In this document: in pieces, positions 790-3,175 of the stretch
Numbering within the stretch: the first letter of the stretch is position 1
Layout: the number at the start of each line of letters is the position of its first letter
From: Isosphaeraceae bacterium
GTDB lineage: Bacteria > Planctomycetota > Planctomycetia > Isosphaerales > Isosphaeraceae
Assembly: GCA_021324445.1 (NCBI GenBank)
Contig: JAJPJC010000540.1
Coordinates: 1-64,000, forward strand
Length of the DNA stretch: 64,000 bases
Direction: 5' to 3'
The notes under the pieces: generated by a model
Database searches by the model: none
The model's input: only the letters and a program-made list of their open reading frames with translations
What the model was told of the DNA's origin: nothing
Position numbers and translations under genes: made by a program

Positions 790-2046
790 CTAGCTCGCTG
801 AGACTGTTCTTTGAGAATCCGGACGAGTTGCCGATGTCGGCTCGGCAGGCGAACCGCCGGCGGCATCCGCCGGCGAATCGATCTCGGGCAGGCCCTCGAA
901 CAAGACCGCGCCGTCGGGGTCGGTTACCTTGATCCTGCGAAAGCGCACCTGTGCGCGCCAGGACCCGAGTCCGATCCAGCCGTGATCGAGAGTCGGGTGC
1001 GAGTCCTGGAACATGAGATTATTACCAAAGTAACATTTGACCGATTTACCACGCACCTCGATCTTGACCGGGTACCATCTGCCGTCCTGGAGTTCGTCCT
1101 TATTCCATACCCAGTTATTCTTCCTTTTGTCCCAATCCCTTGACCATCTGCCGTCGACGACCGAAGCGATCTCGTGAGCACCGTTGTAGCCGCTATACAG
1201 GCATCTTGTCTTGTGGTTCAAGTGGTGGAAGAGGATGGTGAACCTCTGGCCCTGCCCCTCGGTGTGTCTGGTATCTTTCTTCACCTCCAAGGATAGGTCA
1301 TAATGTGACCAATTCCGGTCGCCAAACACGAGTTCAGCGTTCCTTGCCAGGCTCGTCTGGACCAGGTCACCGCCCTGTCTCGTCCATGTGCCACGGATCA
1401 CCTGCGCCTGCCTCTCCTCCGGGGAACGCAAGACAACCTGGCGCAGGGCACCGATTCCCAAGCCGCCGGTTCCCCTAGCCTCGGCGAGACGTTCCAGACG
1501 GACTCGGACCTGCTCCACGCCGTCCGCCTTGAGGGTCAAGACCTCGGAGAACGTCCTGAACCCATCGGACCTGACTTCAACCTGGTGTTGACCCGGAACG
1601 CGTCGGATCTCCACGGGCTCAGTCACTCCCGGCCAGCGGAAGGCGACCTTTTCGCCATCGATGAAGATTTCGGAATCCTTCGGGACGCCCTCCAGCACGA
1701 GCACACCGTCCGGCGTCTTGAGCCTCAACACGACGCCGAGCCACGCGCCCAAGAAGCTGAGCACCAACACCCCAGCGGCCACCGCTGGCCGCACCCCGGG
1801 CGATCGTCGCCTCACGAGGACGGCCGGCGCCACGTCGGGAACCGGGTCCTTCTCACGAACGCCGATCGGGCTTTCCCACGCCAGCCCGGCCCGGCTCGAC
1901 GCCACCGTCTCCGGCAGCGCGGTGGCTCGAACGGGCGTGCTCAAGGCCGATTGGATCGGCGTGTGGGCCACTTCGGCGGCGGTCTTCCCCACAGCCTCCG
2001 GCCGTGCGGGCAAAGACAGCTCCGGCTTCGATCCCATCGCCCCCAC
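790..2046 (-). CDS. C-terminal part of Ser/Thr kinase (membrane segment, PEGA-like, DUF1080/LamG-like sensor), out of frame
   Basis: This reading frame is the continuation of the kinase at 1853-3175 after a one-base shift. It carries a proline-rich juxtamembrane stretch, one transmembrane helix (AAGVLVLSFLGAWLGVVLRL), a PEGA-like beta domain (DSEIFIDGEKV, VPGQHQVEVRSDGF) and then about 190 residues resembling the 3-keto-disaccharide hydrolase/DUF1080 or LamG jelly-roll fold (WSHYDLSLEVK, DGRWYPVKIEVRGKSVKCYF, GWIGLGSWRAQVRFR). In related kinases this part lies outside the membrane and is thought to sense a ligand. The nominal ATG at 2046 is an internal methionine, not a natural start. Unless the shift is read through or is a sequence error, this half is not made as part of the kinase. 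Confidence 0.7.
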   Translation of the reverse strand: MGAMGSKPELSLPARPEAVGKTAAEVAHTPIQSALSTPVRATALPETVASSRAGLAWESPIGVREKDPVPDVAPAVLVRRRSPGVRPAVAAGVLVLSFLGAWLGVVLRLKTPDGVLVLEGVPKDSEIFIDGEKVAFRWPGVTEPVEIRRVPGQHQVEVRSDGFRTFSEVLTLKADGVEQVRVRLERLAEARGTGGLGIGALRQVVLRSPEERQAQVIRGTWTRQGGDLVQTSLARNAELVFGDRNWSHYDLSLEVKKDTRHTEGQGQRFTILFHHLNHKTRCLYSGYNGAHEIASVVDGRWSRDWDKRKNNWVWNKDELQDGRWYPVKIEVRGKSVKCYFGNNLMFQDSHPTLDHGWIGLGSWRAQVRFRRIKVTDPDGAVLFEGLPEIDSPADAAGGSPAEPTSATRPDSQRTVSAS

Positions 2047-3175
2047 GTTCCCCGCCTTGAAGAACGGCTTGAGCGCCTGAGCGACCTCGCCGGGGGGTCT
2101 GAAATCGCCTCTTCGGCTCCTTGGCCATCATCTTGGCGACCAGGGCGGCCAGCTCCACCGGCACCTCGGGCCGGACCAGGTTCAGCGGCCCGGCATCCAT
2201 CGAGAAGTGCGCCTGGTAGAGGTCCCAGAGGTTGTCGCCCCCGAAGGGCGGCCGACCGGCCAGGAGGTAGTAGAGCGTGCAGCCCAGGCTGTAGATGTCC
2301 GCCCGGATGTCGGCTGACTGGGCATCGCGGATCTGCTCGGGCGCGATGTAATCCGGCGTGCCCAGCATCTGGCCCTCGCGGGTCAGGCCCCCCTCGGCCT
2401 GGCCCTCGCTGGTCACCTTGGCCAAGCCGAAGTCCAGCACCTTCACGATTGCCTTCTTCCCCGCGCGGGCGAGCATGAGGTTGCTGGGCTTGATGTCGCG
2501 GTGGACCATGCCGTGCTCGTGCGCGTGCTGGAGGCCCAGCGCCGCCTGGTGCACGTAGCTGCACGCGTTGGCCACCGGCAGCGGTCCCTTGGCCTTGACC
2601 ATCTTGGCCAGGTCGAGGCCCTCGACGTACTCCATGGCCAGCACGAGGCTCTCGCCCAGCCGCAGCGCCGAGTAGGCGGTGACGATGTTGGTATGGTGCA
2701 GCTTGGCAGCCGAGCGGATCTCGCGGAGGAAGCGGTCGACGACCCCTTGGCGGGTGATGAGGTGGCTGCCGACGACCTTGAGCACCTCCTTGCGCCCCAT
2801 GAGCTGATTCTCCGCCAAGTAGACCACGCCCATGCCGCCGCGGCCCAGCTCGCGGAGGATTTCATAATCGGGATGGTCGGCCAGGCCCGGGGGCATCGTG
2901 CTGGCTGGGGGCGGGGCCTGGGCGCTGGGGCCGGCAGGCAGCATCGAGAGGCCGTCGGTCGAGGAGACGATCGGGGAGGGCGCCTCGGGCCGGGCCTGGA
3001 CATCGCGGAGCCGGCCCAGGAAGCTGTCGGAGGTCAGCTCGGCGACCCGGCGTCGGCAGGCCGGGCACGACTCCAGGTGCTGGTTGACCGCTTCGGCCGA
3101 GGCGTCGTCGAGTCGGCCCAGGCCATAGGACGAGAGGGTCTGGTCGGTCGGGTGGACGGCGTGAGAGGCGTTCAT
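1853..3175 (-). CDS. Serine/threonine protein kinase, N-terminal and catalytic part (frameshifted)
   Basis: The first 50 residues hold a zinc-finger-like motif (HLESCPACRRRV) common in planctomycete kinases and anti-sigma proteins. The catalytic domain follows: glycine loop GRGGMGVVYLAEN, ATP-binding Lys in KEVLKVV, catalytic loop HRDIKPSN, DFGLAK, and activation-segment end GTPDYIAPEQ. The domain is complete to about residue 355 (KEPKRRFQTP). From there the frame turns into Arg/Gly-rich nonsense, while the plausible continuation (GEVAQALKPFF...) is in the frame of 790-2046. A sixth G at 2092-2097 causes the shift; with five, one protein of about 790 residues would result. The role would be a transmembrane signalling kinase. 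A real mutation, a sequencing error and slippage are all possible. Confidence 0.85.
   Translation of the reverse strand: MNASHAVHPTDQTLSSYGLGRLDDASAEAVNQHLESCPACRRRVAELTSDSFLGRLRDVQARPEAPSPIVSSTDGLSMLPAGPSAQAPPPASTMPPGLADHPDYEILRELGRGGMGVVYLAENQLMGRKEVLKVVGSHLITRQGVVDRFLREIRSAAKLHHTNIVTAYSALRLGESLVLAMEYVEGLDLAKMVKAKGPLPVANACSYVHQAALGLQHAHEHGMVHRDIKPSNLMLARAGKKAIVKVLDFGLAKVTSEGQAEGGLTREGQMLGTPDYIAPEQIRDAQSADIRADIYSLGCTLYYLLAGRPPFGGDNLWDLYQAHFSMDAGPLNLVRPEVPVELAALVAKMMAKEPKRRFQTPRRGRSGAQAVLQGGERGGDGIEAGAVFARTAGGCGEDRRRSGPHADPIGLEHARSSHRAAGDGGVEPGRAGVGKPDRRS
2092..2097 (-). other. Frameshift site in kinase gene (run of six G on + strand)
   Basis: On the coding strand the run reads ACCCCCCGGCGAGG. 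Dropping one C restores the codons for Q-T-P-G-E-V-A-Q-A-L and joins the kinase domain to its membrane and sensor part in a single frame. The position falls exactly where the kinase domain ends and the juxtamembrane linker starts. Confidence 0.8.

Follow-up and report, generated by a model that had tools for sequence, protein, structure and literature searches.

An outer DUF1080 domain is typical of single-span kinases in Planctomycetota, and among the domains confined to the periplasmic side of such kinases it occurs most often, according to an excerpt of PMC11032199. The kinase locus described here shares the layout of those receptors, namely a cytoplasmic kinase, one membrane helix and a DUF1080-like outer domain, but it differs from those in the excerpt by an additional N-terminal zf-HC2 domain, by a PEGA domain and by a broken reading frame. 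The best solved relative is mycobacterial PknB (PDB 6b2p), which aligns over residues 104–365 of the joined protein. PknB, however, is continuous across the place at which the present frame breaks. Its outer domain is presumably of another kind than that of this kinase. In the excerpted part of the GeneTack survey (PMC3711429), lone frame breaks confirmed by BLASTp and Pfam were classed as likely sequencing errors or pseudogene indels. The singletons described there resemble the kinase locus in that a lone break falls on a short homopolymer with homology on both sides, and no distinguishing difference was found in that text. Non-programmed slippage of tRNA-Pro on CCC-C in Escherichia coli, as presented in an excerpt of PMC4519876, also has CCC followed by CG and a +1 shift in common with this locus; in contrast to that case, the kinase site lies deep in the gene and no conservation of it was seen.

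The analysed window is a stretch of 64,000 nucleotides, the first 64 kb (1–64000) of contig C411 in a genome of 10.8 Mb assembled into 567 contigs, and the break site lies 2.1 kb from a contig end. The features of the locus are as follows.

1853..3175, minus strand: upstream open reading frame of 440 amino acids with ATG at 3175, encoding zf-HC2 and a Ser/Thr kinase with VLK, HRD, DFG and APE, then a 79-residue out-of-frame tail
3053–3136, minus strand: zf-HC2 in the upstream open reading frame (Pfam)
2099–2866, minus strand: Ser/Thr kinase domain (Pfam extent)
2092–1856, minus strand: out-of-frame tail of 79 residues at the end of the upstream open reading frame
2092–2097: G6 run on the plus strand (C6 in the mRNA) within ACC-CCC-CGG, where the frame breaks; the run is one base too long for the frame to continue
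790..2091, minus strand: downstream frame of 433 codons (2091–793) plus a stop to 790, encoding the putative last kinase helix, juxtamembrane linker, transmembrane helix, PEGA and a PF06439/DUF1080-like domain
about 1726–1782, minus strand: membrane helix in the downstream frame (hydrophobicity)
1489–1707, minus strand: PEGA in the downstream frame (Pfam)
925–1392, minus strand: PF06439/DUF1080-like domain in the downstream frame (Pfam)

At the junction of the kinase and sensor frames, the mRNA reads CGA-TTT-CAG-ACC-CCC-CGG-CGA. The sensor frame is free of stops back to 2127 (the preceding stop in that frame is at 2130–2128), and the kinase frame reaches its stop at 1855–1853; the shift is therefore confined to 2127–1855. 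The GC3 peak leaves the first frame and enters the second between windows 2220–2071 and 2100–1951 (about 2160–2011). When one base is skipped at the C-run, a single protein of 794 residues results, in which the break follows residue 361. The initial annotation had described a kinase gene split at a G6 run, from which removal of one G would restore a receptor of 790 residues. The split at this run is confirmed, with minus-strand open reading frames at 3175–1853 and 2046–790 (the latter with GTG at 2046 as its first listed start), and a single frame is indeed restored, although its length is 794 and not 790 residues. The break is present in the assembled sequence and is beyond chance, as the downstream frame encodes homologous domains.

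A transmembrane Ser/Thr receptor kinase of Planctomycetota is expected to carry a Pkinase domain with its catalytic motifs, and such a domain was found (PF00069, E = 2e-51), with EVLKVV at 130, HRD at 225, DFG at 248 and APE at 278 all intact. In the joined protein, Pfam assigns zf-HC2 to residues 14–41, Pkinase to 104–359, PEGA to 490–562 and PF06439, the DUF1080-like 3-keto-disaccharide hydrolase family, to 595–750, and the sole strong hydrophobic stretch lies at about residues 465–483. The membrane helix and the PEGA-like and DUF1080-like sensor that had been proposed are thus all found, the PF06439 match being marginal (27.8 bits for the fragment against a cut-off of 26.8, and 26.1 for the joined protein). 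Kinase, membrane helix and outer domain do not share one frame as assembled, and do so only when one base is omitted.

The break had been placed directly after the catalytic domain, and this is contradicted by two comparisons. Of the 263 positions of the Pkinase profile, the match extends to 253 here and to 260 in L123, a relative without the break. Solved PknB chains (PDB 6b2p and others) remain aligned as far as residue 365 (query position 263), past the break. These matches together place the last kinase helix downstream of the break, which thus falls within the final part of the catalytic domain, at the start of that helix, and not behind the domain. We take the residues directly after the break, GEVAQALKPFF, to be this closing helix. 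The 79-residue tail in the 0 frame has a maximum hydropathy of 0.33, a codon score of -0.11 and no hydrophobic stretch, and it looks non-coding in character. Because the truncated form would lack the last helix and carry this tail, a working soluble kinase is doubtful, and the earlier proposal of a soluble kinase without a sensor is unsupported.

We observed no stop in the 433 codons of the downstream frame, despite 142 one-step routes to a stop. The probability of such an outcome is 0.09 at 5% neutral divergence, 0.023 at 8% and at most 0.023 beyond that, so the absence of decay asserted at the outset holds. Because no stop was taken over these 142 routes, the break is either young or not real. 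Among 333 long coding segments, none has a lower codon score than the sensor half, which might be read as decay. This reading was rejected, since codon scores are similarly low in the corresponding halves of L123, L124 and a paralogue on contig C566, and low GC3 is found alike in the unbroken relatives.

A GTG at 2046 and an in-frame ATG at 2037, read from the sequence, could serve as starts of a separate membrane sensor gene, so that the locus would consist of two real adjacent genes, the other encoding a soluble kinase. This is extremely improbable, as the second frame shows coding periodicity from the break onwards, the last kinase helix likewise starts there, well upstream of 2046, and the relatives have one continuous frame. 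Moreover, the first frame ends at 1855–1853, far inside the second, so stop–start coupling would be unavailable.

If the frameshift were programmed, the break and its slippery site would be expected to recur in homologues. No close orthologue of the sensor half (same sensor, high identity) was found among the 45 family genomes searched, nor among 397 genomes of the class, in which the best-scoring match outside the genome itself has 30% identity. At 12 of the 15 loci with sensor homology, the kinase HRD motif and the sensor lie in the same uninterrupted frame; the remaining three (L032, L148 and L150) gave no HRD motif match, and two of these, L032 and L150, are truncated on their 5' side. A comparison of run length in relatives had been suggested, and we read the border codons of L003, L004, L046, L052 and L056, the nearest of the paralogues and relatives. 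They are ACC-CCT, ACC-CCG, ACG-CCG or ACA-CCG, and neither a six-C run nor a break is present at the kinase border in any of these five. Judged from these homologues, the frame break appears to be a singleton. A nucleotide pattern of the border, run against the 45 family genomes, hit mainly what looked like chance occurrences and was set aside.

The genome encodes a very large set of kinases: a search with this one gave 164 hits at E ≤ 0.001, some genes being hit twice. The closest paralogue (L004:2156–2170; C566, about 11,320) has an outer part that by eye resembles an FGE-sulfatase. Its halves, in two frames, share 65% and 70% identity with this kinase, and in the assembly its catalytic core is broken by the loss of one G from a run immediately ahead of HRD. 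This break cannot be compatible with a working kinase.

Programmed or usefully leaky +1 frameshifting would require that peptidyl-tRNA-Pro slips by one base at CCC-CGG, yielding mostly truncated kinase and few full receptors. The mRNA site is physically able to slip in this way, since the tRNA can re-pair fully along the C-run and a +1 shift is what the downstream frame requires. The excerpt of PMC4519876 describes +1 slipping of up to about 1% at CCC-C in E. coli with the site at the second codon, next to the start, and the work employed CCC-CG itself. However, CCC-CGG is an ordinary codon pair, with 176 in-frame cases in the coding segments of 864 kb of this genome and no break within 25 nt of any; the kinase site is excluded from this count, as the hidden Markov model (HMM) of codon usage switches 14 nt upstream of its run. 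CGG is also the commonest Arg codon (42%), which makes starvation of the A site unlikely. Neither the break nor the slippery run is conserved in the nearest paralogues and relatives read, the 0-frame stop is not near (the tail runs for 79 codons), and the short product would lack the last kinase helix. Programmed or usefully leaky frameshifting is therefore very unlikely, and none of the matches listed in the literature search described bacterial receptor kinases with a programmed break. Some trace read-through at CCC-CGG is possible, although nothing marks the site as selected for slippage. That a few ribosomes slip +1 and make trace receptor beside a truncated cytoplasmic kinase, in a ratio that responds to tRNA-Pro modification, is a shade less likely again. 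Slippage yielding both forms, as had been suggested, is unsupported, given that the run and break are absent from the relatives read and that CCC-CGG is common without a break.

Errors in the assembly are expected to raise the density of frame breaks across the genome. Candidate breaks were called with the codon-usage HMM, at a score P of at least 15, in 864 kb of this genome and in two relatives with low contig numbers, G023 (3 contigs; 400 kb) and G008 (340 kb). This gave 14, 6 and 7 candidates, respectively, corresponding to 14/203, 6/91 and 7/66 of all HMM switches (0/4 in 60 kb of G014). A looser first cut, requiring only a distance of at least 30 nt to the old stop, had given 22 breaks in 464 kb of this genome and 5 in 400 kb of G023. 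This apparent excess was discarded, as many of the candidates were neighbouring genes and the stricter score gave similar densities. An error-ridden assembly was rejected on the similar break densities of this genome, G023 and G008. Homology was checked for some of the switches, with eight joined proteins submitted to Pfam and others inspected by eye; among the eight, one, a CheB protein of G023, clearly has a single domain across the joint.

Runs of at least six C or G within 25 nt of candidate breaks numbered 9 in the three genomes pooled, where 1.1 were expected. Homopolymer indels, real or artefactual, thus account for a clear share of the breaks in these genomes. Among six-base C/G runs in coding sequence, those within 25 nt of a candidate break were 2 of 259 in this genome, 0 of 203 in G023 and 5 of 119 in G008. 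Since only two of 259 such runs lie at breaks in the genome itself, its assembly is not grossly error-prone, which favours mutation over error. The enrichment would also suit phase variation, in which slipped-strand mispairing lengthens or shortens the run and switches the receptor on or off within a population, as would a break at a G9 run in a CheB gene of the three-contig relative. For the kinase this is highly improbable, as six bases are short (at least seven were taken as the characteristic repeat in the excerpt of PMC3711429), the relatives read have no run at the border, and the six-base runs of the genome so rarely coincide with breaks.

In the G023 gene (L090:12321), a CheB-CheR fusion is broken at this G9 run within the CheB domain, and one Pfam CheB match spans the joint; phase variation is more plausible at this run than at the kinase G6. 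Two further frame changes were seen in the genome itself. At L121:14224 (C411, about 78,224), the reading frame of a glycosyltransferase-like gene switches at a C6 run, as judged by eye only. At L076:16807 (C58), the frame of a multihaem cytochrome shifts and then runs into a DUF1559 protein, possibly through a deletion or a misjoin.

From the frame break, the homology on both of its sides, the relatives read, which have neither run nor break, and the lack of decay, we infer the cause of the break and the fate of its product. The receptor-kinase gene is most probably broken by a single, unprogrammed one-base indel in a homopolymer, which would stem from a recent mutation or from an error in the sequence (probability roughly 0.9), consistent with a lone break on a homopolymer, flanked by homology and unshared by relatives. 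The gene would encode, or would until very recently have encoded, a single transmembrane receptor kinase of 794 residues, a type frequent in Planctomycetota, and would be interrupted in the assembled sequence by expansion of C5 to C6 (mRNA sense). This expansion could be an error of base calling or assembly, with the gene itself intact, or a real and recent replication-slippage mutation; we place error slightly ahead. If the mutation is real, the product would be a 440-residue cytoplasmic protein with 79 random residues in place of the last kinase helix, the linker, the membrane helix and the sensor. Such a protein would probably be unfolded or inactive, and the gene a young pseudogene. Of the options in the initial annotation, recent mutation and sequence error are thus likely, and the dual forms made by slippage are unsupported. 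A regulated switch at the break is unlikely, and nothing points to one.

For annotation, it would be wrong to enter one half as a soluble kinase and the other as an orphan sensor. If slippage were shown to give both forms, it would provide a simple means of uncoupling a receptor kinase from its sensor, although nothing here points in that direction. Directly downstream of the kinase, an HTH_3 protein is encoded on the minus strand at 378–773 of the window and is antitoxin-like by look. A coding-like stretch at 1–248, cut by the contig start and with no Pfam match, was also observed.
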